From an uncultured Lachnospiraceae bacterium (GTDB lineage Bacteria > Bacillota > Clostridia > Lachnospirales > Lachnospiraceae): a stretch of 64,000 bases of DNA. The notes below the pieces were generated by a model that saw only the letters and a list, made by a program, of their open reading frames with translations, was not told where the DNA came from and ran no database searches. How positions within the stretch are numbered: the first letter of the stretch is position 1; each line of letters begins with the position of its first letter. Positions 3,715 through 45,658 of the stretch are shown one piece after another. The translations under genes were made by a program, and so were the position numbers. The stretch is taken from assembly GCA_947626745.1 (NCBI GenBank), contig CANQTF010000003.1, positions 124,001 through 188,000 of the forward strand, in the 5' to 3' direction.

Positions 3715-4416
3715 ATGAAAAAGCAAAGAATGAAAAAATGGGCATCATTGGTATTGGCACTTACCATGATAGTCGGCTCCACATTATGCGTGGAAGCAGC
3801 CGGCAGCGGCTACAATGAACCGACAAAAAAGGAAGAGGCGCAGCAGTCCGGCGAAACATCGACAAATGAAGCAACCGGCGCAACAACTGCTGCCGCACCC
3901 AGCCAGACAGTTCAAAATGTTGTAAAAAAAGGCGATGGCACAGTTCTTAAATCGACCGTATCCGGCAGTTATACATCGAAAAAATTTGCGGGGACGGCGG
4001 TAACGTCTGTAAAAGCAAATGTAAATGCGGCTTTGGGAGTAAAGAGCGGCGAAAAGGCGATGATCAGTATCGGGGACAGTGCTTGCGGTGCAAAAGCGAT
4101 GAAGACCGTAACGGAAGTATCTTCGAGCATGGGAGCAAAGGTAGCGGGGATCTTGGATATCTATGGTTCTAAGATAACAGCTTCGGGTAAAAGAGAGAAT
4201 ATTGCACACCCGGCAAGCGAGGTTTCTTATACGGTGGGTGTTCCGACATCTATGAAGGCGCCTGCCGGATATCAGATAGCTGTTTTGCGCGTATATGGCG
4301 ATAATGGCGTCGGCAAGGCAGATCTGTTGAAGGATATGGATAACGATCCGAATACAGTGACGTTCTCGTCTGACAAGTTTGGTGTATTTGCATTTGTTTA
4401 TATTAAAAACGTGTAA
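3715..4416 (+). CDS. secreted protein of unknown function
   Basis: 233 residues from the ATG at 3715, chosen because AGGAGG lies eight bases upstream; longer in-frame starts lack a site. Residues 1-29 form a classic Sec signal peptide (KK, KK, hydrophobic core, then VEAAG). A low-complexity Thr/Ser/Ala/Glu linker runs to about residue 65. It is followed by a roughly 150-residue domain containing TVSGSYTSKKFAGTAV, ISIGDSACGAKAMKT and a C-terminal FGVFAFVYIKNV beta strand. I do not recognise the domain. No LPXTG, lipobox or transmembrane tail is present, so it should be released or held by partners. It is controlled by the dyad-flanked promoter next to the XRE gene. Confidence 0.75.
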   Translation: MKKQRMKKWASLVLALTMIVGSTLCVEAAGSGYNEPTKKEEAQQSGETSTNEATGATTAAAPSQTVQNVVKKGDGTVLKSTVSGSYTSKKFAGTAVTSVKANVNAALGVKSGEKAMISIGDSACGAKAMKTVTEVSSSMGAKVAGILDIYGSKITASGKRENIAHPASEVSYTVGVPTSMKAPAGYQIAVLRVYGDNGVGKADLLKDMDNDPNTVTFSSDKFGVFAFVYIKNV

Positions 4417-4438
4417 TTTGCAAACGATTTTTGTTGAA

Positions 4439-4472
4439 TTACGGGGAGCATGCCGTAAAATGCTCTCCGTAA
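4439..4472 (+). terminator. hairpin terminator after the secreted protein gene
   Basis: A 13-base stem (left arm 4439-4451, right arm 4460-4472, one G-T wobble) encloses an eight-base loop and is followed by TTTCTGTT. It lies 22 bases past the stop codon and separates the secreted gene from the SH3-like gene. Confidence 0.65.
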
Positions 4473-4504
4473 TTTCTGTTGTAAGGTAAAAGAAAGCATA
4501 TATC

Positions 4505-5122
4505 ATGAAAAAATTTTTAATAATCAATGGTTATTTAGCGGCCGCTCTTCTGTTCGTAAAAGCAAAGGATATCGTTTATGCAGCAGAACAGGCACAGGTT
4601 ATCTATGATTTTATGGAAATGTCCGAAGATGTTCCCGTATATGAAGAGCCTAATTCTGAAAGCAAGACAGATGTGATTATACCGGAAGGGGAAAATGTCC
4701 TTATTCTTTCGCAGACTGCGGAAGGCTGGTATCAGATTCTATATCATGGAGAAATAGCATATATCAACGGCAATCATGAAAACATGACAGAGATGCAGAT
4801 ATCGGAGGATGTCGTTGAAGAAATGGAAGAAACAAGGGCAGCGCAGGAATTGGCCCAAGAGGAAACGCAGGAGATCATGTCAGAAGAGGCGGATGAGGCG
4901 GCGGAAGATGTTGTATCGACAGGGTATGCACATGATTCGGCCATAAGCGAGCAGAATCAAAAAAATATAACCATAACCAAAATATTATTATCCGTAGTAG
5001 TTGCTATAGTAGCGTTAAGCGGCGCAGGTTATTGGTACATGAACAGAAAAGAAAAATTAGAGCAGATCAAAAAAAGGGAGCAGACAGATCTATATATTCA
5101 AGATTTAGATCAAGAAAAATAA
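4505..5122 (+). CDS. SH3b-like domain protein with C-terminal membrane anchor
   Basis: 205 residues. A cleavable-looking signal sequence ends near residue 27 (VYAAEQ). Residues about 35-95 have the pattern of a bacterial SH3 domain (VPVYEEPNSESKTD, then VLILSQTAEGWYQILYHGE, then AYINGN). A Glu-rich segment follows (about 100-140), then one transmembrane helix (about 158-178) and a basic cytosolic tail. So the SH3-like domain faces out, tethered to the membrane. The ribosome binding site is weak. SH3b domains usually bind peptidoglycan or peptides. The ligand is unknown, and the neighbouring secreted protein is a candidate partner by position only. Confidence 0.75.
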   Translation: MKKFLIINGYLAAALLFVKAKDIVYAAEQAQVIYDFMEMSEDVPVYEEPNSESKTDVIIPEGENVLILSQTAEGWYQILYHGEIAYINGNHENMTEMQISEDVVEEMEETRAAQELAQEETQEIMSEEADEAAEDVVSTGYAHDSAISEQNQKNITITKILLSVVVAIVALSGAGYWYMNRKEKLEQIKKREQTDLYIQDLDQEK

Positions 5123-5151
5123 ATACTAACAAATAGATATGGTTTTATGAT

Positions 5152-7233
5152 ATGAGCATGGCAAATAAAATAATCAACAAAAGAAATATGATAATATGCT
5201 GTTTCGGTGGAATTACTGTCTTTAAGATGATTTGTATGTGCTGTTTTTCTTCGGATTATCAGGATGTGTTATTTTTTCCGTTTGTAAGCCAATTTTTAAC
5301 GGGTCAAAATAACCCGTACGAATATTATCATGCAAACCATATGATAGAGGCTTTTGCATACCCGCCATTTATGCTTTATATTGAATCCGTACCCGTCGGG
5401 TTGATACGTTTGTTTTCTATTCAAAATAGTTATTTATTCCACTTTGTGCTCAAATTACCGATTTTCTTATTTGATAATTTGTGTGCCTATATTTTATATA
5501 GACTTTTTCCGCACAAAATAAAATATATTTTACTGTTTTACTGTGCTTCGCCTATTATAATTTATTCTGCGTATATGCATGGACAGCTGGATATCATACC
5601 GACCGCGATCTTATTGGCAGCCATTTATTTTTTGACGCAGAAAAGTGCGCGTGCGGAAATAGTTTCTTTACTGTTGTCAGTGACAGCAGTTTTGACTAAA
5701 CAGCATACGATAGCTGTAATTCCGTTATTATTTATGTTTTATCAAAAGCGGAAAGGGCATTTGAGGTGCATCTGCGCGCTTATGATATTTACTGTCATAG
5801 TTATCATGTGCATCGCGCCTTTTTGGTCAAACGGATTTGTTCAAGAGGTACTGCTTAATAAGGAACAGAGCCGGCTTATGAATGTATACATAGACTATGA
5901 CACCTTAAAGTTTATCATTCCGATCTTTATGGTCTTATGGTTATATCTAAGAGTATTTTATTTAGACAGAATCAATCAGGAGCTCCTGTTGAATTATTGT
6001 GGTATCCTTTTCGCGGTTTTCTTGGCGTTTGTTGCACCTATGCCGGGTTGGTATGCATGGATAGTGCCGTTTATCACCATATTTTTTATGTATGCAGGAC
6101 AAAACAGATATAAACATTTTGTGCTGTATTTCCTTTTAAATGCAAGTTATCTTTTATATTTTTTCTTTTTTCATAATCAAGGATTAACAGATCTCTATTT
6201 TTGCGGGATCTCCTTAGCATATCTGAAAATAAATAACACAACGCTGCGGAATCAGATTTTTACCGTTATGACCGGTATTTTACTCTATGTTATCTTTCAA
6301 ATGTATCATTTTGGCATAGCCAGCAATTCCTTGTACAAACGGGGAAATATTCCGTTGGCGCTCGGCATAGCCGGAGATAGCGGAAGCGGAAAAAGTTATA
6401 TGCTGCATACTTTAGAAATGGTTTTCGGTAAAAAAAATATTTTGGAAATAGAGGGAGACGGAGATCATAAATGGGAACGCGGCGAACAAATGTGGAAATA
6501 CCATACGCATTTAGATCCGAAGGCAAACTATTTATATCGACAAGCCAATGATATACGGATGCTCAAACAGGGTAAATCCGTATATCGGGTGGAATATGAC
6601 CATACGACCGGAAATTTTTCTACTCCGCATAAAATAAAACCACGCAAAATCATTGTTGTATGCGGCTTGCATTCCTTATATCTGCCGCAAATGCGGAAGT
6701 GCCTCGATATCAAAATCTACATGGATACTGAGGAATCTTTAAGGAGATTGTGGAAAATAAAGCGGGATACCGCCAAAAGGGGATATTCAAATGAAACGAT
6801 CATAAATCAGATCGAAAGCCGCCGCGTAGATAGTCAAAAATATATCATGCCGCAAAAAGAGTATGCAGATATGGTTATCCACTTTTTTGATGACCGTTTG
6901 ATCGGACAAGAATTATCGCCGGATTATATGCCTGAAATCAGTATGAAATTATCAGTCAGTTCGGAAATAGATCTGGAATCCATTATTACGGATCTAAGAA
7001 ATGCCGGCATTCAGATCACGCAAGATTATGAAGAAAATATAAATCGTCAGACGGTATTGGTAGACGGCAGAGCCTGTCGGCTTGACGCAAAGTGTATCGG
7101 AGAAATTGCTGCGAAAAATATACCACAGATAGATGAGTTGACTATGCAGAAATTTGACACAGAAGATTTGAATGGCATTATTGCGCTTTTTATTTTGGCG
7201 TTAATGAGCAGCCGACTTAGGGAGGAAATATAA
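5152..7233 (+). CDS. GT-C-like membrane protein fused to uridine kinase/PRK-like domain (AT-rich copy)
   Basis: 693 residues in three parts. Residues 1 to about 390 are polytopic, with GT87/DUF2029-like signatures: SSDYQD in the first loop, a following NPYEYY, FAYPPFMLYIE, and YMHGQLDIIPTA. About 400-585 is a P-loop kinase of the uridine kinase/phosphoribulokinase type: Walker A GIAGDSGSGKS at 405-415, IEGDGDHKWERG from about 433 (candidate catalytic Asp), HLDPKANYLYRQ, EYDHTTGNF, CGLHSLYLPQM from 504, and a later RD-x4-RG motif. About 590-693 is a third, unrecognised domain. The gene next downstream follows directly after its stop. A closely similar protein is encoded at 14255-16381. Substrates of either catalytic part are unknown. 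Confidence 0.8.
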   Translation: MSMANKIINKRNMIICCFGGITVFKMICMCCFSSDYQDVLFFPFVSQFLTGQNNPYEYYHANHMIEAFAYPPFMLYIESVPVGLIRLFSIQNSYLFHFVLKLPIFLFDNLCAYILYRLFPHKIKYILLFYCASPIIIYSAYMHGQLDIIPTAILLAAIYFLTQKSARAEIVSLLLSVTAVLTKQHTIAVIPLLFMFYQKRKGHLRCICALMIFTVIVIMCIAPFWSNGFVQEVLLNKEQSRLMNVYIDYDTLKFIIPIFMVLWLYLRVFYLDRINQELLLNYCGILFAVFLAFVAPMPGWYAWIVPFITIFFMYAGQNRYKHFVLYFLLNASYLLYFFFFHNQGLTDLYFCGISLAYLKINNTTLRNQIFTVMTGILLYVIFQMYHFGIASNSLYKRGNIPLALGIAGDSGSGKSYMLHTLEMVFGKKNILEIEGDGDHKWERGEQMWKYHTHLDPKANYLYRQANDIRMLKQGKSVYRVEYDHTTGNFSTPHKIKPRKIIVVCGLHSLYLPQMRKCLDIKIYMDTEESLRRLWKIKRDTAKRGYSNETIINQIESRRVDSQKYIMPQKEYADMVIHFFDDRLIGQELSPDYMPEISMKLSVSSEIDLESIITDLRNAGIQITQDYEENINRQTVLVDGRACRLDAKCIGEIAAKNIPQIDELTMQKFDTEDLNGIIALFILALMSSRLREEI

Positions 7234-10200
7234 ATGACGACCTCAAAATATTCAGAGCGCAGTAAAAACACGATAGAAACAATGGGAGTTATTTTATTAA
7301 CGTTGGCCGTGTTTCTTATAATAGGACAGGGAAATCTCAATTTTGGTTTATTTGACGATAATAAATCCCAATGGCTTCCGATAATTGATAAAGCGTATCA
7401 AACTTTGTTTCATACAGGGCATCTGCCGACGATTGATTTCTATCAAATGAAGGGAATGAAAATATATGATCAGGGGTATTACGGATTATGGAATCCGTTT
7501 ATGCTTGCGGCATATGTTATAAGGGCATATTTTCTGAATTTTTTAAATACCAATACCATATCCGTTTATATATGTCTGATGATCGTACTGGGTAATATAT
7601 GTTGTTGCAAAATATTCAGAGAATGTGGCAATACCCGTATATGTTCCGTGTTGTTCTCTGTTTCTATGATGTCCGTATCGGTTTATACTGCAATAAGCTA
7701 CTGGTATTATATTTATAATGTGTATTTTATTTTGGCATGGCTTTTGCTCCGATTGATTCGGAACAGAGAAAAACGAAGTTATTATGACTGTGGAGCGATT
7801 CTTGCATGCAGCCTGTTAATGGGGAATATACAGTATACGGTATATATGTATTTGGTATACACTATAATGACCGTAGTATTTTTCTATCAGAAAAAAAGCG
7901 AAAGTATCATGAAATGGTTGTCGAACAGCGTATGCATGGGCGTACTTTCAGTGCTGCCGTGTATTTTACTCTTGCTGGCATCGTTCAGAACGACAAATTT
8001 TTCACAGGGTAACAATGAATATTACAGCATGGTCGTTCACCCGCTCATTATGGCACTGTTTTCATGGCTTCCGTCCGCACTTTTGGGAAGTTTCGGCGAA
8101 AAAACGGAGGCATGGATATATGCCGATCATTATTTGCCGGATACAGGGAGCTTTCCGGGAGCGCGAAGTGCATATCTGGGAGTCTTATTATGTGCGGCGG
8201 TCATTTTTGTGATATGTCGTAAAAAGATACAAAAAGACCGTTTCTGTGAAATAGCGTGGGCGGGTGTGATCACAGCGGGAATAACGCTTATGTTATCTTT
8301 GGGTAAAATAGGTATTTTGGCAATATTTGCTCATCAGATCCCGTTACTTGACAATTTTCGTATTTTAATGAAATGGTTTGTATTGATCCCGCCGCTTTTA
8401 ATTCCTTGTTTTGGTGTGATAGCGAGAGAGCAAAAACGTATGCAAAGAAAGCGGGTTGTTTTTGTCCTTTGGGCGCTATTGATGATATTGGGAATACTGC
8501 AAAATCGGAAGATTTTACCGTATACCTCGACAGTGCAGACGGCAGAGGGAATACAAAGGCTGCAAGATCTAGGGGTGGATTACCGCAATTATCGTATTTT
8601 GAGCTTTGCAAAAGGTGAGGAAGTTCAGGTTACATATCCTCAATGGGAAGAGTTTGACAGCAGAGAACAAGTAAGCTATGAGGAAAAATATTCTAAAAAT
8701 ATAGGAACAAGCGCCGGAATAGTGACACTTGGCGGTTATGATCTGGCGTTTGCATATAAACAGTTTCAAATGAGCGATCACATTATGGAAACGATGTCTG
8801 GTTATGCCACAGAGTTCGGCTATGACAATATGGTAATTGAAGAAAATTTTTTGCCAAAGTACAGTAGAGATAATTTGAATTACTGGCAGGAGATAGGAAC
8901 ACTTAAGGAACAGCTTCTCGATAATGGTGTGAAATACTGTATTTTTACAAAGGATTCTTTATGTCTGCCGGTTTTTAAACAGTTGTTGCAAGATATGAAT
9001 CTGACGGTGGAATGGCAGCAGGATTTTTTGGAACATACAACGCTTTTATCTATTAGAGAGGCGCACCCTCTTATACAGGATACAAACGGCAATAAGATCA
9101 ATGCCGATGTAACGATGAATAAGATCACGTTTCCGGTACAAGGCTTTCAAAATGTTCGGATCAGTATGTATTACGATAAAAATATGCAGGGATTTTATAT
9201 CGACAATAGCGGTAACAAGGAATCCGTGTCTGTAATGCCGGATGAAAAGGGCTATCTTTGGATCTCGGATATTCCGCAGGATAGTGACGGCGTAATTGAG
9301 ATTACCTATTTGAACCGTTTATATGTGTCATGTCAAATATGGATCGTTATGGAAGCACTGATCATAGGATTTTTGTTGTTTATGCCGGAAGTAAATACGG
9401 TAAAGAGACTTTGCCAATATGCAGATGAGAAAATACAAGCGGTATACCGTTCTTTGATGAAAACCGCTCCGTACAGAGGCGTAAAAATCTGTTTTATAGG
9501 AATGATATGCGGTTATATGGGCTTTATGGCGTTCTATTATTTGCATATCCAGTGTACGGTTCCGGATGAAGACTGGTTTTTGGAGATGTTTCGTACGATT
9601 CATAAAATGGCGCAGGGAAATATTTTTTCTTATCTGGGTAATACGGAAAATTATTTGGGATACGGGCAGATTTATTGGATATTGAGCAGTATTTGTCCCA
9701 ATATTATAGTTCTTAGGATCATTTCCTATCTGCTGATTATGGGGAGCATGATACTTACTTTTTGTGATATCGGCAACCGATACGGCAGGAAAATGATTCC
9801 ATATGCGGGTATACTGTGGATTTCTATGCCGTTTACATGGTTTAGTGATAAAATCATCGGACCGGAGATACTGGGCTTGTTTATAGGCATCTTGGGGATA
9901 TATATAGTACATTGGCGGCAGAAAAAATGGATCGGCTGGATCTTGTTAGGAATAAGCGGCGCAATAAAAACTTATTACATGATATTTATGCTTTTTGCAG
10001 TACTGGCACTTCTTAGAGAGAGAAAAATGCAAGGGGCGGCGCTATCGGCAAAGGGCATAGGATTAAGTATCTGCGGTTTTTTGATCAGTAATCCGATCTT
10101 ATTATGGGATACGCAGACATATTTGGAAAATGCAGCTATGGGGAAAGGTTTTTCGCCGGAATTTATCGACCGTGTATTTGAAAGACATGAATACGAATGG

Positions 10201-10884
10201 GACATGGTTATAGTAAACGGTGCTTTTGAGGGATATATCAGCGCTTTTTTGCTGGCGGCGGCAGTCCTGCTTGGCCTGTATAAGACAGTACATCATAGCG
10301 ATAAAATAACAAAATATGGAGATGAAGCCGTAGCGGGGATATTGTCATTATTGTTGATCCTCATCTGTAGCAGGGCCGGATTCTTGGGGTGGTATCTGCT
10401 GCCGCTGTGTTATTTGATGGAAATATTTGTGTGCGGGCAATTTTATTCAGGGGATCAAGGGAGAAAGGCACAAAATATAAAGCAGTGGTTATTGGCAATA
10501 TGCTTGCTGATCAACGGAGCGCTGCTGCTTCCGGATCACATTCTTAATCGGCAAAACAATATAGAATATATGCATATGTTGGCGGATAAAGTTGAAATAT
10601 GCACGGAAATACAGAGTGAAGAAGAACGTATCAAACAGGAAATGCCTGACGCGACATGGTACTATCTTCTGGATCATCATATGGATCAATATGCCTATAA
10701 TCGCAGAGATTACACGAACTTTTATTTTTTAAATGCAGAAGGTATTGCGGTCATCGGCAATCGGGCGCAGCATGCAAAGGGGCTTGGAGAACTTGTAGAA
10801 AAGGCTGTCAAAGGCGAGGAACATTTGCGCGTTTTGGGACGCACGAAAGACGCGTGGATTATACAAAGACGAAATGACTTGTAG
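7234..10884 (+). CDS. giant double GT-C-type membrane protein
   Basis: 1216 residues. The start ATG directly follows the previous stop and has GGGAGG eight to nine bases upstream. The N-terminal half has a first transmembrane helix, then an acidic loop (DD at residues 41-42 in GLFDDNKSQW), then many helices and a large soluble segment (about 430-700), an arrangement like YfhO-type membrane proteins. The second half begins near residue 740 with another transmembrane helix followed by VPDEDWFLEM (acidic residues 778-780) and about nine more helices. That is the pattern of GT39/ArnT-like GT-C transferases, in which an acidic residue in the first outer loop is catalytic. It probably transfers sugars from polyprenyl-phosphate donors outside the membrane (inference). 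Confidence 0.7.
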   Translation: MTTSKYSERSKNTIETMGVILLTLAVFLIIGQGNLNFGLFDDNKSQWLPIIDKAYQTLFHTGHLPTIDFYQMKGMKIYDQGYYGLWNPFMLAAYVIRAYFLNFLNTNTISVYICLMIVLGNICCCKIFRECGNTRICSVLFSVSMMSVSVYTAISYWYYIYNVYFILAWLLLRLIRNREKRSYYDCGAILACSLLMGNIQYTVYMYLVYTIMTVVFFYQKKSESIMKWLSNSVCMGVLSVLPCILLLLASFRTTNFSQGNNEYYSMVVHPLIMALFSWLPSALLGSFGEKTEAWIYADHYLPDTGSFPGARSAYLGVLLCAAVIFVICRKKIQKDRFCEIAWAGVITAGITLMLSLGKIGILAIFAHQIPLLDNFRILMKWFVLIPPLLIPCFGVIAREQKRMQRKRVVFVLWALLMILGILQNRKILPYTSTVQTAEGIQRLQDLGVDYRNYRILSFAKGEEVQVTYPQWEEFDSREQVSYEEKYSKNIGTSAGIVTLGGYDLAFAYKQFQMSDHIMETMSGYATEFGYDNMVIEENFLPKYSRDNLNYWQEIGTLKEQLLDNGVKYCIFTKDSLCLPVFKQLLQDMNLTVEWQQDFLEHTTLLSIREAHPLIQDTNGNKINADVTMNKITFPVQGFQNVRISMYYDKNMQGFYIDNSGNKESVSVMPDEKGYLWISDIPQDSDGVIEITYLNRLYVSCQIWIVMEALIIGFLLFMPEVNTVKRLCQYADEKIQAVYRSLMKTAPYRGVKICFIGMICGYMGFMAFYYLHIQCTVPDEDWFLEMFRTIHKMAQGNIFSYLGNTENYLGYGQIYWILSSICPNIIVLRIISYLLIMGSMILTFCDIGNRYGRKMIPYAGILWISMPFTWFSDKIIGPEILGLFIGILGIYIVHWRQKKWIGWILLGISGAIKTYYMIFMLFAVLALLRERKMQGAALSAKGIGLSICGFLISNPILLWDTQTYLENAAMGKGFSPEFIDRVFERHEYEWDMVIVNGAFEGYISAFLLAAAVLLGLYKTVHHSDKITKYGDEAVAGILSLLLILICSRAGFLGWYLLPLCYLMEIFVCGQFYSGDQGRKAQNIKQWLLAICLLINGALLLPDHILNRQNNIEYMHMLADKVEICTEIQSEEERIKQEMPDATWYYLLDHHMDQYAYNRRDYTNFYFLNAEGIAVIGNRAQHAKGLGELVEKAVKGEEHLRVLGRTKDAWIIQRRNDL

Positions 10885-11505: not shown

Positions 11506-12576
11506 ATGCAAGATTTCATCAGGATATCCAAATATGCGGGCATGCGCAACGATCTGGCACAGGCGGGCGGCGGCAACACCTCCGTCAAACTGGACGAGCA
11601 TATCATGCTGGTCAAGAGCTCGGGCTTTCAACTGGCGGATGTGAGCGAGCAGACCGGGTATGCCAAAGTGGATTACGGGAAGATCACGGATCATTTTCAG
11701 AGCTATGTGGGGACGAGCGGCGGGGAGGTTCTGACCGAGGAGGTCGGCAAGGCGCTGCTCGCCGAGGCACACATCGAGGGCGGACGCCCTTCCATAGAGA
11801 CATTCCTGCACGCGGTCACGGGGAAATACACGCTGCATTCCCACCCGACGCTGGTGAATGTCCTGACCGCGCGCGACGGCGGTACAGATATCCTGCGGAC
11901 GCTTTTTCCGACGGCGGTGTTCGTTCCGTACAGGAAGCCGGGCGCGGCGCTGGCGGAGACTTATTACAGGCTGTACGCAGAGCAGCGGGCACAGGGGGCG
12001 GACGGCTCTGTGGTCTTTCTGGCAAACCACGGACTGGTGGTGAGCGGGGACAACGGCGATACGGTGATCGACCGGACAGAACAGGTTTTGCAGAAGATCG
12101 CGGCGTATTTGGAAATAGACGACAGCGCCTATCGGGAAGCGACGAAGCTCTGGCGGACGATAGAGCAGATCGGCGCGCTGTCGGGATACATAGTATATGT
12201 TTCGGAGAACCGTTACCTGTCGCGGGAGTACGCAGGTGAACCGCTGGCGGAGGCCGGGCTGTGGGAGCATGCCTTCTGTCCGGACTGCGTGGTCTATGCG
12301 AACAAGAAGCTGCTGCGGCTCGACAAAGAATATAAAGCCGCGGATATAACGGATTTTATGGAGCGGTACGGCGCTCCTGCGCTGATCTATCACGAGGGCA
12401 GCTTCTATATTCTGGCGGAGAGCGTGAGGAAAGCGCAGGAGATCGAGAACGTGATGAGCTTCGCGGCGCGGGTGCAGCGCGCGGATCTCGGGCAGAAAAT
12501 GAATTATCTGAGCGATGCACAGGCGGACGAGCTGTTAAATTGGGACGCGGAAAAGTTCCGCCGGCAGAAAGGATAG
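11506..12576 (+). CDS. class II aldolase/adducin family protein
   Basis: 356 residues. The N-terminal 210 residues form a class II aldolase domain: substrate-phosphate loop motif AQAGGGNTSVKL, zinc ligands in TLHSHPTLVNVL and a further His in FLANHGLVVSGD. Members cleave or form sugar phosphates (fuculose-1-P, rhamnulose-1-P), epimerise ribulose-5-P, or decarboxylate tetronate phosphates. A 140-residue C-terminal extension (from about ENRYLSREYAG) has a CPDCVVY motif and is not part of the basic aldolase fold. It is the first gene of a tight GC-rich operon with nucleotidyltransferase, kinase, phosphatase and glycosyltransferases, so a role in making a surface-glycan precursor is likely. The exact reaction cannot be read from sequence. 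Confidence 0.85.
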   Translation: MQDFIRISKYAGMRNDLAQAGGGNTSVKLDEHIMLVKSSGFQLADVSEQTGYAKVDYGKITDHFQSYVGTSGGEVLTEEVGKALLAEAHIEGGRPSIETFLHAVTGKYTLHSHPTLVNVLTARDGGTDILRTLFPTAVFVPYRKPGAALAETYYRLYAEQRAQGADGSVVFLANHGLVVSGDNGDTVIDRTEQVLQKIAAYLEIDDSAYREATKLWRTIEQIGALSGYIVYVSENRYLSREYAGEPLAEAGLWEHAFCPDCVVYANKKLLRLDKEYKAADITDFMERYGAPALIYHEGSFYILAESVRKAQEIENVMSFAARVQRADLGQKMNYLSDAQADELLNWDAEKFRRQKG

Positions 12577-12583
12577 AGAGATC

Positions 12584-14221
12584 ATGAATGTCGTCATTCC
12601 GATGACCGGATACGGCTCGCGCTTTGCGGCGGCGGGCTATCGGGAACTGAAACCTTTTATCAGGGTCATGGACAGGCCGATCATAGAGTGGATCGTGACG
12701 GGAATGTACCCTGCGGACGTAACGTTTATTTTTGTCTGCCGCGGGGAGCATCTGCGGAAGGATCCGTCCATGCGGGAGAGGCTGCTGGGGCTTGCCCCGA
12801 AGGCGGTCGTCGTGTCGATCGATGACTGGGTGAAGAAGGGGCCGGTGTATGATGTGCTGCGCGCATACGAGATGCTGTGCGGACAGGAGGACGGCGGCAT
12901 CGACCCGAAGGACGGATTTATCATCAATTACTGTGACTTCTATATGACATGGGATTACGCCGCCTTTGCCAAGGAGGCAAAGGAGCGCGGCTGTGACGGC
13001 GCCGTTCCGTGTTACACGGGCTTCCACCCGAATCTGCTGCCGGAGAAGAATTATTATGCCTCCTGCCTGACCGATGCGCATGACGATCTGATCGAGATCC
13101 GGGAGAAGTATTCCTTTGAGAAAGATAAGATGAAAGCGAAACACTCGCCGGGAGTGTATTATTTTAAGAACGGCGAGGTGATGCAAAAATACTGCCGTAT
13201 GCTGACGGAACATGAGGAGTGTGCGATCAACGGGGAATTTTACGCGTCCCTCCCGTATAACTTTATGGTGCGCGACGGCCTGAAGGTATGGGTGCCGACG
13301 AATGTCAGACACTTCTGCCAGTGGGGCACGCCGGAAGACATGAAGGAGTTTGTCTACTGGACGGATCGGATCTGCTCGGCAGGAAAAGAGGCGGCGGACG
13401 CGCCGATAGCAGACGGCGGGCACGGCAGGATATTGATCCCCATGGCGGGCGCGGGGCAGCGCTTTGCGGACGCGGGATACAAGGTACATAAACCGGCGAT
13501 CATGACGGTGGATCGAAGGACAGGGCAGGAAAAGCCGATGGTGGTGTGCGCCACGGCGGATCTGCCGGGGCTGGCGGCGGACGGCGGCAACGTCATCTAT
13601 GTGGACAGGACTTTTCACAAGACAGACGGGGTGGAGGCTGCGATCCGCAGTTACTATCCGAAGGCCGAGTTCATCACGGTAGACCATTTGACCGAAGGAC
13701 AGGCCTGTACCTGTATGCTTGCCGAAGACAGCTTGGATCCGGCAGAGCCTCTGCTGATCGCGGGCTGCGATAACGGTATGGATATCGACAGGGAGGCTTT
13801 CGATGCGCTGACGCGTGTGTGCGACTGTATCGTATTCACTTACCGGCACAACGAGGCTGTTCTGGCGAATCCCAATGCCTATGGGTGGATGATAGCGGAC
13901 GCGGACGGTAATATTACAGGCACATCGATCAAGAAAGCGATCTCTGATACGCCGATGGAAGATCCTGCCGTGGTGGCGACTTTCTGGTTCAGACAGGCGA
14001 GGATATTCACGGAGGCGACGAAGAAGATGATCGCGGAAGATGACCGCATCAACGGAGAGTTTTACGTCGATCAGGTGGTGAAGCACGTGCTGGAGCTGGG
14101 ATACACCGCCAAGATATTCGATATCGACCGCTATGTCGGGTGGGGTACGCCCGCAGATTATGAGAATTATCAAAGGACATGGCGGTATTTTCAGGATCTT
14201 GTGGAAGAGGAAGCCCTGTAA
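12584..14221 (+). CDS. tandem-domain sugar nucleotidyltransferase
   Basis: 545 residues made of two nucleotidyltransferase domains. Domain 1 (about 1-265) opens with IPMTGYGSRFAAAGYRELKP and has NYCDFYMTWDY, with the metal-binding Asp. Domain 2 (about 280-545) opens with IPMAGAGQRFADAGYKVHKP and has AGCDNGMDID at the matching place; both end with a WGTPxD motif. Each keeps the glycine-rich loop and the downstream Lys-Pro of NTP-transferases that join a nucleotide to a sugar or polyol phosphate. The start lies eight bases after the aldolase stop. The pair may activate two related substrates, or one domain may be regulatory. The nucleotide cannot be inferred. Confidence 0.82.
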   Translation: MNVVIPMTGYGSRFAAAGYRELKPFIRVMDRPIIEWIVTGMYPADVTFIFVCRGEHLRKDPSMRERLLGLAPKAVVVSIDDWVKKGPVYDVLRAYEMLCGQEDGGIDPKDGFIINYCDFYMTWDYAAFAKEAKERGCDGAVPCYTGFHPNLLPEKNYYASCLTDAHDDLIEIREKYSFEKDKMKAKHSPGVYYFKNGEVMQKYCRMLTEHEECAINGEFYASLPYNFMVRDGLKVWVPTNVRHFCQWGTPEDMKEFVYWTDRICSAGKEAADAPIADGGHGRILIPMAGAGQRFADAGYKVHKPAIMTVDRRTGQEKPMVVCATADLPGLAADGGNVIYVDRTFHKTDGVEAAIRSYYPKAEFITVDHLTEGQACTCMLAEDSLDPAEPLLIAGCDNGMDIDREAFDALTRVCDCIVFTYRHNEAVLANPNAYGWMIADADGNITGTSIKKAISDTPMEDPAVVATFWFRQARIFTEATKKMIAEDDRINGEFYVDQVVKHVLELGYTAKIFDIDRYVGWGTPADYENYQRTWRYFQDLVEEEAL

Positions 14222-14254: not shown

Positions 14255-16381
14255 ATGAGCTTCATGTTGCGCAGACTGGATACGTTGGATTGGGAAAAAA
14301 ATTATTATAAAATACTGCTGTCAGTCGTCATCGCGGCAGTTCTGTTTAAACTGCTCCTAATGGGACTGTTCTCGTCGGATTATCAGGATCTCATGTTCAT
14401 TCCCTTTGTGCAGTGCTTTCTGGACGGAAAAAATCCCTATCAGTATTATTATGACAATCGGCTGCTGTCCTCTTTTCCGTATCCGCCGGTGATGCTGTAT
14501 ATCGAGTGCATCGGGGGTATCCTTGTGAGGCTTGGCGGCGCGCTTCCGGTCTTTATGCGGAATCTGCTGTTCAAGCTGCCGCTGCTTTTGGCGGATCTTC
14601 TGGGGCTGTACTATCTGATGCGTATTTCCAAGTCGCGGCGGAAGTATATCATCGCGCTGTATTTTCTGTCCCCGATCATTCTGTACGCCACCTATATGCA
14701 CGGACAGCTGGACATTATCCCGACGGTGTTTCTGGTGGGCGCGGTCTGCTATCTGACGGAAACGGGCGCGTCGGAGGAGGAGGCAAAGTATAACGATTGG
14801 AAGTATGTGGCATTTCTTACGCTTTCCTTAGCGTCCAAATTTCACATCGCGGTGGTGCTGCCGCTGTTTTTCCTGTATCTTTACAAGAAGAAGGGGCGCA
14901 AAAAAGCAGTGATCCTGACGGGATTGCCCGTCTTGTGTACGGCGCTTATCATCGCTCCTTTCTGGGGAAGCGGTTTTGTCAACTTGGTGCTCTTGAACAA
15001 GGAACAGAGTGTCATCGACGATGTCTATATCGAGTACGGCAGCGCGCATCTGCTCCTGTGTGTGCTGGTGCTGCTCTTGGTTTATTTTCAGGCGTTTCAT
15101 ATCAACCGGATGAACAGGGAGCTGCTCATCAGTATGACGGGACTTCTCTTTTCGGTATTTCTCGCGTTTGTGCCGGCCATGCCCGCATGGTACATATGGG
15201 TCGTGCCCTTTTTCATGCTGTACCTCGCGGGATTATCCGTCAACCGCAGTAAAATGGTCCTCGTCTACGGCGGGTTCAATCTGCTGTATCTGCTCTATTA
15301 TGTCTGTTTTCATGTGACGCGGTTTACCGACCTGTCGTTTCTCGGCAGGGATCTCAACCGGCTGAAATACGCCAATGAGGGCGCGCGGAATATCGTATTT
15401 ACCTTAATGGTCGGCACATTTATGATCTTGGTCGTCTTCATGTATCTGTACGGCGTGAACAGCAATTCGTATTACCGCAGGAGAAACCGCCCGTTTACGA
15501 TCGGTATCGCCGGGGACAGCGGCGCCGGCAAGAGCAGACTGCTCGTCATGCTGCGCGAACTGCTCTCCGAGGAGAGTATCCTGCATATCGAGGGCGACGG
15601 CGATCACAGGTGGGAGCGGGGAGACACAAACTGGAAGGATAAGACGCACTTGGACCCGCTTGCCAATTACCTGTACAGACAGGCGGAGGATCTGCGCATA
15701 CTGCGCGGCAACAATGCGGTGAAAAGGGCGGATTACGACCACAGTACGGGAACCTTTACCGGCAGGAAAAGAGTAGCGCCGAAGCCGTATATCGTTATGT
15801 GCGGTCTTCACTCGCTGTATCTTCCGCAGATGCGGCAGGTCTTGGATATGAAGATCTATCTGGATACCGACGAGGCGCTGAGATGCCGCTGGAAGATGCT
15901 GCGGGATCAGAGTGAACGGGGCCATACGGCCGGGGAAGTGACGCGGCAAATGGAAAGGCGGCGCGCCGACGCGGAGAAATATATCTACCCGCAGAAGCAG
16001 TATGCCGATCTGGTGATTCGGTATTTTGACGACGCTCTGCCGCAGGATCAGGCGGCGGCGGACAGCCGGCCGCAGACCGATCCGAACGTGGAATTTCTGT
16101 TGGACGTGGGGATCAATGCCGAGCCTGTACTGGGACTCCTGCAGGAGCAGGGGATCAGCGGCAGCCTTGTCTATGACAAAGATCTGCTGCACCAGAGAAT
16201 GGTATTTGCCGGAGACGATCTGAAGAAAATCGACAAGGCCGTCTGGAGGCGGATAGCCCGTGCGGCGATCCTGCAGATGGAGGATCTGACCGGCGGGCAG
16301 GTCATATGGGAAGACGGCACCAACGGCTTGGTACAGGTTATCCTGCTTATGGTGCTCAGCGACATCATGAAGAGAGATTGA
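14255..16381 (+). CDS. GT-C-like membrane protein fused to uridine kinase/PRK-like domain (GC-rich copy)
   Basis: 708 residues with the same three-part layout as the protein at 5152. Polytopic GT87/DUF2029-like part: FSSDYQDLMFIPFV, KNPYQYY, FPYPPVMLYIE, YMHGQLDIIPT. Kinase part from about 412: Walker A GIAGDSGAGKS at 417-427, IEGDGDHRWERG, THLDPLANYLYRQAEDL, DYDHSTGTF, CGLHSLYLPQMR, then RD-x4-RG. Third domain about 600-708, with a DGTNGLVQVILL segment near the end. It lies inside a glycan operon between the nucleotidyltransferase and a HAD phosphatase, which points to a sugar or polyol-type acceptor for the kinase. GGAAAGG precedes two possible ATGs (14255 or 14264). The coupling of cytosolic kinase and membrane transferase is inference. 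Confidence 0.82.
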   Translation: MSFMLRRLDTLDWEKNYYKILLSVVIAAVLFKLLLMGLFSSDYQDLMFIPFVQCFLDGKNPYQYYYDNRLLSSFPYPPVMLYIECIGGILVRLGGALPVFMRNLLFKLPLLLADLLGLYYLMRISKSRRKYIIALYFLSPIILYATYMHGQLDIIPTVFLVGAVCYLTETGASEEEAKYNDWKYVAFLTLSLASKFHIAVVLPLFFLYLYKKKGRKKAVILTGLPVLCTALIIAPFWGSGFVNLVLLNKEQSVIDDVYIEYGSAHLLLCVLVLLLVYFQAFHINRMNRELLISMTGLLFSVFLAFVPAMPAWYIWVVPFFMLYLAGLSVNRSKMVLVYGGFNLLYLLYYVCFHVTRFTDLSFLGRDLNRLKYANEGARNIVFTLMVGTFMILVVFMYLYGVNSNSYYRRRNRPFTIGIAGDSGAGKSRLLVMLRELLSEESILHIEGDGDHRWERGDTNWKDKTHLDPLANYLYRQAEDLRILRGNNAVKRADYDHSTGTFTGRKRVAPKPYIVMCGLHSLYLPQMRQVLDMKIYLDTDEALRCRWKMLRDQSERGHTAGEVTRQMERRRADAEKYIYPQKQYADLVIRYFDDALPQDQAAADSRPQTDPNVEFLLDVGINAEPVLGLLQEQGISGSLVYDKDLLHQRMVFAGDDLKKIDKAVWRRIARAAILQMEDLTGGQVIWEDGTNGLVQVILLMVLSDIMKRD

Positions 16382-16391
16382 GGATAAGATC

Positions 16392-17057
16392 ATGATAAAA
16401 GCGGTAGTGCTTGATCTGGACGATACGCTATATGCTTTTGAACCGTTGGACGCGGAGGCGCGCGTGCGCGTGCGGGCGTATGCCTGTGAGAAGCTGCATA
16501 TCACGGCGCAGCGGTATGAAGAGGCGTTCGACTATGGCAGGAGAGAGACGAAACGGCGGCTCGGCAGTGTGGCCGCGTCGCACAACAGATTGTTGTATTT
16601 TCAGACGGCGCTTGAACACATGGGCGTGAATCCCGTACCGATCGCGCGGGAGCTGTATGAGATGTATTGGGACACAGTTCTGCATAAAATGAAACTGAAC
16701 GACGGCGCGCGGGAATTTCTCGACCGTATGCATGCGTGCGGCATCAAGGTGATGCTCTGTACCGACCTGACGGCGCATATCCAGTACCGCAAGATCGAGG
16801 CGCTGGGGATAGCCGGCGACATCTTCGGGCTGGTGACGAGCGAGGAGGCCGGCAGGGAAAAACCCGCCCCCGAGATATTTGCGCTCTGTCTGGCAAAGCT
16901 GGGACTGCCGGCGGCGGAGGTCTGCTGCGTCGGCGACAGCCCGGAGAGGGACGTGGCGGGCGCGCGCGCGGCCGGTATGCAGACTGTTCTGTTTCAGCCG
17001 GATCAGCCGAGTGCGCAGCAGTTTGAGAAGCTGGGAGAGATCATTGGAAAAAGATGA
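16392..17057 (+). CDS. HAD-superfamily phosphatase (subclass IA)
   Basis: 221 residues. All four HAD motifs are visible: DLDDT with nucleophile Asp8 and acid Asp10, motif II Thr in MLCTDLT, motif III Lys in GREKPAPEIF, and motif IV CVGDSPERDVAGA. A helical cap between motifs I and II places it among phosphoglycolate-phosphatase-like enzymes. GAGGA lies nine bases before the ATG, and the gene is eleven bases past the kinase-fusion stop; its own stop overlaps the next reading frame. Its likely job is to remove phosphate from an intermediate of the same operon. The substrate is unknown. Confidence 0.88.
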   Translation: MIKAVVLDLDDTLYAFEPLDAEARVRVRAYACEKLHITAQRYEEAFDYGRRETKRRLGSVAASHNRLLYFQTALEHMGVNPVPIARELYEMYWDTVLHKMKLNDGAREFLDRMHACGIKVMLCTDLTAHIQYRKIEALGIAGDIFGLVTSEEAGREKPAPEIFALCLAKLGLPAAEVCCVGDSPERDVAGARAAGMQTVLFQPDQPSAQQFEKLGEIIGKR

Positions 17058-17071
17058 AAACGGAGGGATCT

Positions 17072-17770
17072 ATGAAGCTGTCAGTCGTTGTTCCATGCTA
17101 TAATGAAGAACAGAACATACCGCTGATCCTCACGCGTTTTGCACAAGTCGTAGACAGGGACGACGTCGAGGTGATCCTCGTGGACAACGGTTCTACGGAT
17201 CACAGCGCGCAGGTGCTCACGGAACTGCTGCCGGAATACCCGTTTGCAAGGACCGTGAAGGTAGAGGTCAATCAGGGATACGGTTACGGTATCCTGCAGG
17301 GGCTTAAGGAGTGCAGGGGCGAGTATATCGGGTGGACGCACGCCGACATGCAGACGGATCCGGCGGATATCCTGCGGGCGCTGGCTATCATAGAGGCGCA
17401 GAACGGGCTTGTCTTTGTCAAGGGCAGACGAAAAGGCCGGCCGCTGTTCGACGTGTTTTTTACGACAGGCATGAGCCTGTTCGAAACCTGTTATCTGCGG
17501 GAGAAGCTGTACGATATCAACGCGCAGCCGAATCTGTTTCCCAAGGTATTCTTTGATGCCTGGGACAATCCGCCGCACGATTTTTCGCTGGATCTGTATG
17601 CGCTGTATATGGCGCGCCGCAGGAGGCTTAAGGTGATCCGGTTTCCCGTGCTCTTTCCGGAGAGGATCTACGGGGAATCCAAGTGGAATACGGGGCTTAA
17701 GGCCAAGTGGAGATTTATCAAGAGGACGATCGCCTTCAGCATAAACCTGAAAAAGAACGGCAATATCTGA
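17072..17770 (+). CDS. family 2 glycosyltransferase, DPM1-like
   Basis: 232 residues from the ATG at 17072, chosen because GGAGGG precedes it closely and it gives MKLSVVVPCYNEEQ, the standard GT2 start; an upstream ATG at 17054 overlaps the HAD gene. Motifs: VDNGSTDHSA (nucleotide binding), GYGYGILQGL, and WTHADMQTDP carrying the metal-binding Asp residues. It is soluble or peripheral with no C-terminal membrane helices, like short DPM1-type enzymes that move a sugar from a nucleotide donor to polyprenyl phosphate. That would supply the GT-C proteins in this operon. The sugar is unknown. Confidence 0.87.
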   Translation: MKLSVVVPCYNEEQNIPLILTRFAQVVDRDDVEVILVDNGSTDHSAQVLTELLPEYPFARTVKVEVNQGYGYGILQGLKECRGEYIGWTHADMQTDPADILRALAIIEAQNGLVFVKGRRKGRPLFDVFFTTGMSLFETCYLREKLYDINAQPNLFPKVFFDAWDNPPHDFSLDLYALYMARRRRLKVIRFPVLFPERIYGESKWNTGLKAKWRFIKRTIAFSINLKKNGNI

Positions 17771-42543: not shown

Positions 42544-43794
42544 TTATACGCCATTGTAGTTTTCCCAGCGCCATCTGATAAAATCCCGATTGATGAAATC
42601 GGGGAGAACGATTCTCGGAGGGATGATAGCGCCGTAGTCCAACCGTGCTCTTGTAGACAGTTCGACAATTCCTGTCTCAGAGATACGAAGATGTCCGGCG
42701 TCAAACAATGTGTGAATATCTGACCTCATTGCGAGTCCATTTGCAATGGTATCTTCGCCATTATATTTGAATGGCTTGATATGGGCGGCTTCAAGCACTT
42801 CCGGCATGGTTACGTTCGTTATAACACACCGCGGGCAAGCGGCGAGAACATCGTGCCGGAATTTGGCTTGATTCGGACGACTGATCCTAAAATTTTGCAC
42901 TCGTTTGCGCTCGACTTCTGAAGCAACCTCACTTGTACGGATTTGATTCAGGATCATTTGTAGGGAAGCGTCAGTAATCGGAGTTGCGAGAATCTCTTCA
43001 ATCTCAGGTTCAATCAAAGCATTAATGTGGTACTGCTCGGAATCTCTAGTCGATCCGGCCGCCTTTTCCAAGTAACCGTAGTTTTCAAGGAATAATAGAT
43101 ATTCTCGGGAAATACGGAAATCGTTAGCACCTTCACAACAATTAGGCCAGTTTGTAATGGTAATCTCGCCGGAGCGATACCAAAGAATGAAATTCACATA
43201 GTCCTCGATCTGCGCATGGCAGCCGGAAAGAGGTATTATGATCCTTGTCAGTTCTGTGGTTGTTAAGTAGCCCTGTCCTCTCTTTTTGAGTTCCATAATT
43301 ACAGATAAAATAATTCTGAGGGGATAAATAATTAGGCTGTGACTTTCCCAATTCAAGCATTCTGCCGCAGTCTGAACATGGCTGTTAGGCAGCTTGAACG
43401 TCTGAACGGTAATGGCGGAAAACTCTGTTTGAGAAATATCATGTTCCGCTACGCGGCGGCCAAAGTCGGTAAGACAAATAACCCCTCTGCTGTTATCGGG
43501 GATCAAACCGACAGCCTTCCAATACTGGCCGGAATTGCGAATGATATTTCTCTCACCTGTTCGCCTTGCAAGATCGACGCCAATGGAATCGCTGATATCA
43601 TTCGACAACGCAACAAGCTCATCTGCAAATTCCTGTGAACTATATTTCAAACCACGGCCTTCCAGCTTTTTCATACGAAACAGAACGCCTAACAGAACGA
43701 CAGGGTCATTGATCCCTTCGGTACATTGCAGACAAGCCCATTTCCATTTGAAATCCGGGAAAGGCTTTGCAGGGAGAAAATCTTTTGAGAACAT
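42544..43794 (-). CDS. type II restriction endonuclease with C-terminal HNH domain
   Basis: 416 residues. The last 120 residues carry an HNH_2-type nuclease: RHDVLAACPRCVITNVTMPEV (zinc or structural Cys pair), LEAAHIKPFKYNGEDTIANG with the catalytic His, and SDIHTLFDAGHLRIS with the last His. The N-terminal 290 residues are probably the DNA-recognition part, with an unrecognised fold. Its ATG shares one base with the stop of the adjacent methyltransferase gene, so it is the last gene of a three-gene restriction-modification operon. The recognition sequence is unknown. Confidence 0.82.
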   Translation of the reverse strand: MFSKDFLPAKPFPDFKWKWACLQCTEGINDPVVLLGVLFRMKKLEGRGLKYSSQEFADELVALSNDISDSIGVDLARRTGERNIIRNSGQYWKAVGLIPDNSRGVICLTDFGRRVAEHDISQTEFSAITVQTFKLPNSHVQTAAECLNWESHSLIIYPLRIILSVIMELKKRGQGYLTTTELTRIIIPLSGCHAQIEDYVNFILWYRSGEITITNWPNCCEGANDFRISREYLLFLENYGYLEKAAGSTRDSEQYHINALIEPEIEEILATPITDASLQMILNQIRTSEVASEVERKRVQNFRISRPNQAKFRHDVLAACPRCVITNVTMPEVLEAAHIKPFKYNGEDTIANGLAMRSDIHTLFDAGHLRISETGIVELSTRARLDYGAIIPPRIVLPDFINRDFIRWRWENYNGV

Positions 43795-44726
43795 TATTTG
43801 GCATTCCTTTCGTATTGATTAAAAACATTTGCGACTGCGTACCCCAAAAGTGGTGGAACAGCATTTCCTATTTGACGGTATACCGAGGAACGATTGCCGA
43901 AAAACAAATAGTCCAACGGAAACCCCTGTACTGTCGCCAGTTCACGACAAGACATTCTTCTCTGTGCGTTCGGATGAGGAAGAATAACAACGCCGCCCTT
44001 GTTATCACCTCGGGCAGTAACAGTCGGCGCCGGTTTTTCGGGATCCAAAGCTCTGTGACCGAGATAACCATTAAATTGCAGCTTGTATTTTGAGTAATCG
44101 TGATTGGGTAAATCGTTCGGAAGATCGGGGTCAGGAATCTGTGACATTGCTTCACCGACACTTACCCACTGGGGGAGTCCGTTTTCGCCGTTTTTACTGT
44201 GAGTAGGCGAGGGAAATCTATACGCAAAGTCAATATCATTACGCACGCCGATGATAATGACTCTTTGGCGCGTCTGAGGGACTCCGTAATCGGCAGCATT
44301 AAGTACTTGATAACTCACTTGATATCCCAGCGCGGTAAAGTCGTTCAAGATCATTGTGAATACTGCGCCCTTAGCAAAATTGGTAAGTCCCTTTACGTTT
44401 TCCGCCAAGAAAAACTTGGGATTTTTCGCGTCAACTACTCTGATAAATTGTTTATACAAAGCGTTACGTTCATCTGCTTCATGGCGTTTCATATTGGCAA
44501 CAGAAAAGCCCTGACAGGGAAAGCCGCCAATGACGATATCGCATTCCGGAATTTCCTTAGTGTTTATTTTAGAGATATCTTCGCAGATAATATGATCTCC
44601 CAGATTATGTTTGTATGTTTCAACGGCATCTTCGTATAAATCATTTGCCCAAATGATTTCATGCCCCGCCATTTTAAAACCTAAATCAAGGCCGCCGGCC
44701 CCGCTAAAGAGTGATACCACTTTCAT
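43794..44726 (-). CDS. DNA (cytosine-5) methyltransferase, second gene
   Basis: 310 residues. Motif I SLFSGAGGLDLGFKMAG (SAM site), motif IV GGFPCQGFSVAN with the catalytic Cys, motif VI ENVKG, motif VIII QTRQRVIIIG, and motifs IX/X (CRELATVQGFP, then YRQIGNAVPP). The target-recognition region is short, between about 190 and 255. Overlaps the first methyltransferase by four bases. Adds a methyl group to C5 of cytosine in the site cut by the HNH nuclease. It is similar to, but distinct from, the neighbouring enzyme. Confidence 0.95.
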   Translation of the reverse strand: MKVVSLFSGAGGLDLGFKMAGHEIIWANDLYEDAVETYKHNLGDHIICEDISKINTKEIPECDIVIGGFPCQGFSVANMKRHEADERNALYKQFIRVVDAKNPKFFLAENVKGLTNFAKGAVFTMILNDFTALGYQVSYQVLNAADYGVPQTRQRVIIIGVRNDIDFAYRFPSPTHSKNGENGLPQWVSVGEAMSQIPDPDLPNDLPNHDYSKYKLQFNGYLGHRALDPEKPAPTVTARGDNKGGVVILPHPNAQRRMSCRELATVQGFPLDYLFFGNRSSVYRQIGNAVPPLLGYAVANVFNQYERNAK

Positions 44727-45658
44727 ATGTTTTCTTCCTTTTCAAGTCTCATCAATTCTTCTCCAAGTTTTCGGGCAAATATAACCGGGACGGCATTTCC
44801 TATTTGACGGTAACATGAATTCATGGTTCCCACAAAATGAAAATCTTCAGGAAAGGTCTGCAGACTTGCGCTCTCTCGGATCGTCAGTCTGCGTTTTCCG
44901 TTATAATGCGGAATGGCGCAAACGCCGCCTTTTCCGTTTCCTCGCGCAAGAATGGTCGGAGAGGGCTTATCGGGATCGGTTTTTCTGTGCCCTGTGAAAT
45001 TGCGATATTCCACTTTATAAGCAGAGTAAATATGATTCAGAATGTCGTTATCACTATCGGGATCTGGGAAATGATCAATAGCCTCCCTAATGGATACCCA
45101 ATGCGGTAATTCGCCATTTTTTGAGTGAGTGGGATTGGGAAAAATAAAATGCAATTCTTCCCCTAAATCTAATCGTTGACCAATGATAATAACTCTTTGT
45201 CTTGTCTGCGGCACTCCATAATCTGCCATATTAACAATGTTTACAGATGTAGTATAACCCGCAGCCGTAAAGTCTGATAGGATTTGTCTGATTGCTTCTC
45301 CTTTGCTGAGACTAAGGATACCCCTGACATTTTCAGCGATAAAATATTTGGGCTGTTTGCGTTTTACGGTGTTGCAGAAGAAATGATAGAGTTGATTTCT
45401 ATCGTCTTCCAGCGTTCGCAGCCTATTTGCTTGTGAAAAGCCCTGGCAAGGGAAGCCGCCTACAACGACATCGGCATCAGGCAAAGTGGAAATGTCGATA
45501 TTTTTGATGTCATCACAAATAATGTGCCCGCCGATATTCTCTCTGTAAGTTGCAACGGCATCTTTGTCGATGTCGTTTGCCCATATAATCATGTTGCCAG
45601 CTTGTATTAAACCCAAGTCTAATCCGCCGGCCCCACTAAAAAGCGATATGATTTTCAT
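44723..45658 (-). CDS. DNA (cytosine-5) methyltransferase, first gene
   Basis: 311 residues. Motifs: SLFSGAGGLDLGLIQAG, GGFPCQGFSQAN with the catalytic Cys, ENVRGI, QTRQRVIIIGQ, RESASLQTFPEDF and YRQIGNAVPV. It is the first gene of the restriction-modification operon. Two different C5 enzymes beside one nuclease usually means an asymmetric site in which each enzyme modifies one strand. Its ATG overlaps the TGA of a 16-codon frame that looks like the start of a serine recombinase. Confidence 0.95.
   Translation of the reverse strand: MKIISLFSGAGGLDLGLIQAGNMIIWANDIDKDAVATYRENIGGHIICDDIKNIDISTLPDADVVVGGFPCQGFSQANRLRTLEDDRNQLYHFFCNTVKRKQPKYFIAENVRGILSLSKGEAIRQILSDFTAAGYTTSVNIVNMADYGVPQTRQRVIIIGQRLDLGEELHFIFPNPTHSKNGELPHWVSIREAIDHFPDPDSDNDILNHIYSAYKVEYRNFTGHRKTDPDKPSPTILARGNGKGGVCAIPHYNGKRRLTIRESASLQTFPEDFHFVGTMNSCYRQIGNAVPVIFARKLGEELMRLEKEENI

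Follow-up and report, generated by a model that had tools for sequence, protein, structure and literature searches.

The window, a 64,000-nucleotide stretch of DNA from an uncultured Lachnospiraceae bacterium (contig CANQTF010000003.1, positions 124,001 to 188,000), carries at 5152..7233 a gene, fusion A, whose product joins a GT-C membrane transferase to a phosphoribulokinase-like kinase. In the reading we prefer, at a probability of about 0.45, this fusion serves as membrane enzyme in a mobile module for surface-glycan decoration, with a pentose C1-phosphorylation pathway. About seven genes travel together in this set, which probably serves to make an uncommon sugar and to place it on the cell surface.

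Architecture of the fusion and the nature of its kinase

Two such fusions lie in the window, with the following parts (lengths in amino acids, aa):

5152..7233, + strand: fusion A, the gene of the original prediction, GT-C transferase plus phosphoribulokinase-like kinase, 693 aa
5152..6345, + strand: GT-C part of fusion A, residues 1-398, with D35 in the first outer loop, HGQLD at 143-147 and K183/H185
6349..6906, + strand: phosphoribulokinase-like kinase core of fusion A, residues 400-585, Pfam PRK 127 bits
6919..7230, + strand: C-terminal domain of fusion A, equivalent to the phosphoribulokinase C-terminal domain, residues 590-693
14255..16381, + strand: fusion B, a second GT-C/kinase fusion, within the gene module, 708 aa, Pfam PRK 110 bits

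Fusion B has the same architecture as fusion A and is 42% identical to it across 684 aa. The original prediction had a GT-C membrane enzyme joined with a PRK/uridine kinase family member in one polypeptide, and this was borne out: the P-loop part, examined for such a fold, has the PRK fold, and the two regions are not separate genes joined by a sequencing error. Such an error, or a chance fusion, is excluded by fusion B, the matches in the genus, the module loci and the plasmid homologues described below. The prediction had also counted a third, unrecognised domain at the C-terminus. However, matches to phosphoribulokinase structures extend through this domain, which rules out a third domain of unrecognised kind (residues 399-691 of fusion A align with 9qkp_B in the VIA alignment, and a profile match to 9qko spans positions 400-664). 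The fusion thus contains the phosphoribulokinase fold including its C-terminal domain, and because that domain belongs to the phosphoribulokinase unit, the protein has two parts and not three. The prediction had overlooked fusion B and the gene module behind the fusion's probable role.

To place the kinase part, eight fusions (window A, window B, L092, L094, L095, E. coli L125, Hirschia L126 and Azospirillum L127) were scored against NCBIfam models, whose curated cut-offs are 236 bits for phosphoribulokinase (PRK07429.1) and 180 and 220.3 bits for uridine kinase (PRK05480 and TIGR00235, respectively). Phosphoribulokinase was the top model in all eight, at 183-212 bits, and the uridine kinase models stayed below their curated scores in every case (76-94 bits for PRK05480 and 62-81 bits for TIGR00235); the kinase core of fusion A scored 211.7 bits for phosphoribulokinase vs 88.6 bits for uridine kinase. 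The predicted membership of the PRK/uridine kinase family therefore stands, but uridine kinase as the identity was dropped on these scores, phosphoribulokinase being the closer in 8/8. That the kinase part acts on nucleosides or polyols, which the database names imply, is accordingly very improbable: the uridine kinase models reach less than half of the phosphoribulokinase score in all eight, and a His and an Arg are retained at positions that we take to contact the pentose phosphate. Judged by sequence, the kinase part is phosphoribulokinase-like, and we do not file it as a phosphoribulokinase. A Calvin-cycle role was rejected, as no RuBisCO large subunit was found in the window's genome (83.5% complete); the control search was positive in 5 of 14 genomes.

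Residue conservation was read from a Bacillota-centred alignment of 101 sequences, and three plasmid copies were compared separately. K414, D436, R443, H484, K535, R538, D539 and R543 are invariant (101/101), and H439 is present in 100 of 101. All of these except K414, the P-loop Lys, occupy positions that presumably serve as base, pentose-phosphate contact or lid in phosphoribulokinase, and all nine residues are retained in the three plasmid copies as well.

The membrane part shows both the GT-C fold and an acidic residue in the first outer loop. The computed fold is that of polyprenyl-phosphate-sugar-dependent transferases, and its donor would be a lipid-phosphate sugar. Membership of GT87, which had been suggested from motifs, is unsupported: the window copies have no match to Pfam PF09594 at E <= 1, and the Azospirillum copy reaches 19.5 bits, under the gathering score of 25. 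Averaged hydropathy gives twelve hydrophobic segments N-terminal to residue 400; Asp and Glu outnumber Lys and Arg in the long loops 32-73, 224-251 and 340-364, and Lys and Arg are abundant at the N-terminus and in loops 116-126, 192-206 and 315-322. From the loop charges and the model helices, the active-site loops would lie outside and the kinase inside. Because the Lys/Arg-rich loop 116-126 is at odds with strict inside/outside alternation, we keep this sidedness as an inference.

Named relatives put the window within Lachnospiraceae or close to that family. Within the genus, 46 of 77 genomes match the fusion at E <= 0.001. The family sample gives 63 of 250 genomes, only three of them with a full-length match (G000, G060 and G242, read from individual rows) and the rest mostly with the kinase only. 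For the class, the match is full-length in 2/245 genomes and of any kind in 65, and 3/391 genomes match at E <= 1e-60; the family of G365 has one full-length match among 87 genomes and eight of any kind. The family and class samples overlap, and the window's genome is included. Named protein-search matches include Clostridium butyricum, Clostridium botulinum, Orrella and Crenobacter and are mostly annotated as uridine kinase; one JGI annotation reads 'uridine kinase/Gpi18-like mannosyltransferase'. The fusion is real and widespread, and probably misnamed. Stop-bearing fragments with similarity to the fusion, which may be the remains of an extra copy, lie on contig C2 of genome G494 at 68-837.

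Fusion A and its neighbours have 38-40% G+C in 2-kb blocks (4001-10000), and the remaining blocks of the window have 44-59%. Directly downstream of fusion A, at 7234-10884 (+ strand), a 1216-aa membrane protein is encoded that has no Pfam family over cut-off; the matching stretch in L003/L093 holds two open reading frames of 1053 and 156 aa.

The gene module and its carriage on plasmids and viral contigs

Around fusion B, the window contains six further module genes:

11506..12576, + strand: class II aldolase-like enzyme, 356 aa, Pfam Aldolase_II 48.8 bits, a Glu and three His invariant in 23/23
12584..14221, + strand: tandem nucleotidyltransferase, 545 aa, Pfam NTP_transf_3 26.6 bits, just under the cut-off of 27
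16392..17057, + strand: HAD phosphatase, nearest curated model ribulose-1,5-bisphosphate 5-phosphatase, 196 bits (cut-off 330)
17054..17770, + strand: GT2 glycosyltransferase, probable polyprenyl-phosphate sugar synthase, Pfam Glycos_transf_2 90 bits
17795..18388, + strand: GDPD-fold phosphodiesterase, 197 aa
18402..19988, + strand: 528-aa protein, by eye a probable additional membrane glycosyltransferase, without a Pfam match above E 0.5

From the search matches we selected 20 regions, of which 19 have the fusion beside module genes and the twentieth is L092, discussed below (L003, a single locus from the genome_contigs scan, has the same genes as L093 and was counted once). The aldolase-like gene, the nucleotidyltransferase, the HAD and the GT2 are each present in 19/19 of these module loci, the GDPD-like gene in 18 (the exception is at a contig end) and a homologue of the 528-aa gene in 15. 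The nucleotidyltransferase is split into two genes in L094 and L095, and in L091 and L097 it lies with the aldolase on the opposite strand. These surroundings point to the glycan-transfer setting that had been proposed for fusion A.

As for the individual enzymes, the E. coli homologue of the tandem nucleotidyltransferase exceeds the NTP_transf_3 cut-off at 39 bits. The GDPD-like protein has the GDPD barrel fold, with H6, R7, E24, D26 and H39 invariant in 23/23; a phylum-wide search with its gene returned 3 of 398 genomes, one of them distant (26%) and in a different cluster. The aldolase is nearest to the aldolase half of rhamnulose-1-phosphate aldolase/dehydrogenases. The haloarchaeal ribulose 1,5-bisphosphate (RuBP) 5-phosphatase model NF053830 is the top NCBIfam model for all eight module HADs examined (156-196 bits), and its next-best match in the window's genome scores 37 bits. 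The HAD of another glycan cluster (L128) has a different top model; this cluster, at 6226-9277, comprises two nucleotidyltransferases, a HAD and a GDPD-like gene, with no kinase fusion in the fetched stretch, and the nucleotidyltransferase/HAD/GDPD sub-set may recur in other glycan pathways.

The module occurs on plasmids of E. coli (NZ_CP145712), Hirschia baltica (pHbal01) and Azospirillum brasilense (p5). Identity between plasmid and window proteins is 51-60% for the GT2, 44-46% for the GDPD-like protein, 36-39% for the nucleotidyltransferase, 39% for the HAD, 27-30% for the aldolase and 28-32% for the fusion, the E. coli copy aligning only over residues 68-542 or 84-657. A full-length fusion was found in 3 of 72,556 plasmid records. 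Among 5,426 E. coli genomes, two carry the cassette, both times on plasmids (near search, and distant search with a 3.3-kb piece), and no chromosomal locus tying the module to a known O-antigen was found in them; an IS26 transposase gene lies downstream of the module in NZ_CP145712. The five matches in phage records are all to the kinase part only. Two IMG/VR contigs (L129, L130) bear the cassette, flanked by a terminase large subunit gene in L129 and by baseplate and tail-fibre families in L130. GtrA-family genes are found in the three plasmid modules, L094 and the viral contig L129 (Pfam GtrA matches in E. coli L125 and L094; blastp matches in L126, L127 and L129).

Other genes accompany the module. 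A 586-aa protein without a Pfam family stands beside it in L125 (13224-14984), L129 (7046-8869) and L130 (3101-5098), with identities of 58% and 36%. In L130, an acyltransferase-like gene (by eye; 14740-15864, - strand; no PHROG match) lies between the module and the phage tail genes. At 2-886 and 905-2446 of the window (- strand) lie a gene that by eye encodes an MBOAT-like acyltransferase and its partner gene, both of which are conserved beside the module in many of the loci retrieved. Elsewhere in the window, at 42544-45658 (- strand), two DNA cytosine methyltransferase-like genes and an HNH-endonuclease-like gene (by eye) form a possible restriction-modification set.

A proposed pentose route and its alternatives

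The mechanism we propose is a grounded inference and is unproven. At the cytosolic face, the kinase would phosphorylate C1 of a pentose 5-phosphate and the HAD would then strip the 5-phosphate, so that together they would convert pentose 5-phosphate through the 1,5-bisphosphate to pentose 1-phosphate. This product would be activated with a nucleotide, transferred by the GT2 onto polyprenyl phosphate, turned outward by a flippase and added to a surface glycan by the GT-C part of the same fusion protein, with the aldolase supplying or reshaping the pentose. The joining of kinase and transferase may link the supply of the donor to its use at the membrane. An aldose 1-phosphate would be in the furanose form because O5 is blocked, and would be anomeric and thus ready for the nucleotidyltransferase, the GT2 and the GT-C.

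The kinase could instead form ribulose 1,5-bisphosphate or a stereoisomer, from which the HAD would make a pentulose 1-phosphate that the aldolase cleaves, re-forms or epimerises; what is built would be a pentulose or a decoration of two or three carbons, and the GT2 and GT-C might take that or another donor. We regard this ketose route as rather unlikely, although the kinase, the HAD and the aldolase all resemble enzymes of ketose paths (phosphoribulokinase, RuBP-5-phosphatase and rhamnulose-1-phosphate aldolases, respectively). It lacks a link to the GT2, since a ketose 1-phosphate is not anomeric and a polyprenyl-phosphate sugar synthase of the GT2 type could not normally use the matching nucleoside diphosphate sugar, and a pure breakdown path leaves the nucleotidyltransferases, the GT2 and the GT-C unexplained. 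A precedent for the ketose route does exist in the haloarchaeal pathway of RuBP phosphatase and ribulose-1-phosphate aldolase (PMC9700705). We favour the aldose version because the pathway then closes.

Several observations weigh against the aldose scheme. It assigns no step to the GDPD enzyme or to the second nucleotidyltransferase domain, and the likeness of the aldolase sequence to ketose-1-phosphate aldolases fits it less well. Neither the phosphoribulokinase cut-off nor that of NF053830 is reached by any of the eight fusions or eight module HADs, respectively, and NF053830 also matches 14/14 control genomes at E <= 0.001, none over cut-off, so that only the size of the score counts for the HAD. 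L092 holds a fusion A-like copy outside the module in a genome that carries the module elsewhere (L091). A GtrA-family gene is absent from the window's module, and the window's genome has two over-cut-off matches elsewhere. Finally, the Walker-B Glu (EGLH) of phosphoribulokinases is replaced by Cys in 96, Ser in 4 and His in 1 of the 101 sequences, and all three plasmid copies have Ser there. We considered a compensating Glu/Cys swap at 434/504 and dropped it because E434, present in 101/101, is not found in the plasmid copies.

The loss of the Walker-B Glu throughout would suit a sensor, in which the kinase-like domain would bind ATP and pentose phosphate with hardly any catalysis and would tune GT-C activity to the pentose-phosphate supply, and so would the weak conservation of the C-terminal domain, part of the phosphoribulokinase unit (mean pairwise identity 0.34 among the 101 sequences). 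However, we consider a sensor improbable: the presumed base, the P-loop Lys and the lid residues are kept in all 101 sequences, and the annotation of the three plasmid modules shows no other kinase gene. The kinase core is the best conserved region (0.65, vs 0.49 for the GT-C part), and activity is therefore favoured, as far as conservation can suggest it.

Relation to known systems and significance

In the ADP/GDP-heptose pathway, a C1 kinase is followed by a HAD that removes the terminal phosphate and by a nucleotidyltransferase. The scheme proposed for the module has the same order, there for a pentose; the heptose pathway differs in its sugar, its unrelated kinase and the lack of a membrane fusion. 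The three-component Gtr system of O-antigen glucosylation (GtrA, GtrB and a serotype-specific GT-C; partly phage-borne) likewise combines a GT2 and a GT-C in one gene set, the GT-C using a lipid-linked sugar outside, as predicted for the module, and a GtrA-family gene accompanies several module lineages. The module's position next to phage genes in two viral contigs and its occurrence on plasmids are reminiscent of phage-borne gtr operons, as far as the genes alone are compared. Unlike Gtr, the module apparently synthesises its donor itself (with aldolase, kinase, HAD, two nucleotidyltransferase domains and GDPD) and has a GT-C fused to a kinase. The nearest phosphoribulokinases are the 'cyanobacteria specific PRK' structures 9qkn, 9qko and 9qkp, from which the fusion is set apart by the replaced Walker-B Glu, the sub-cut-off score, the joined GT-C and a genome without RuBisCO.

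PMC11127046 describes Gtr glucosylation, mycobacterial arabinan synthesis and a three-component pentofuranose system based on phosphoribosyl pyrophosphate (PRPP). A lipid-linked pentose donor (proposed for the module) and an outer GT-C would be common to these pentose systems and the module; by that account, the pentofuranose systems start from PRPP with a prenyl phosphoribosyltransferase, whereas the module has a kinase, a HAD, nucleotidyltransferases and a GT2. No prenyl phosphoribosyltransferase is annotated in the fetched stretches of the three plasmid modules. The haloarchaeal RuBP phosphatase and ribulose-1-phosphate aldolase belong to a pentose bisphosphate pathway (PMC9700705); its HAD model is the best match of the module HADs and a class II aldolase occurs in both, but the haloarchaeal pathway is one of breakdown without glycan genes, and the module HADs stay at 156-196 bits against the cut-off of 330.

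No paper describing the fusion or the gene set was found in the open-licence literature. It is possible, if somewhat less likely than the reading we prefer, that the fusion is the first known enzyme to join pentose-phosphate C1 phosphorylation and lipid-linked sugar transfer within a single membrane protein, as part of a cassette that phages and plasmids carry and that forms its pentose (or pentulose) donor via pentose 1,5-bisphosphate.

A family that databases mostly call uridine kinase appears to have a different role, as a glycan enzyme. If the proposed pathway is true, it would be a new way of supplying surface glycans with activated pentose and, alongside the PRPP route, another path to lipid-linked pentose donors, and it would show the phosphoribulokinase fold in use outside carbon fixation, in a relative that works without RuBisCO. 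Carried on a mobile cassette, it could alter host surfaces from gut Clostridia to Proteobacteria.
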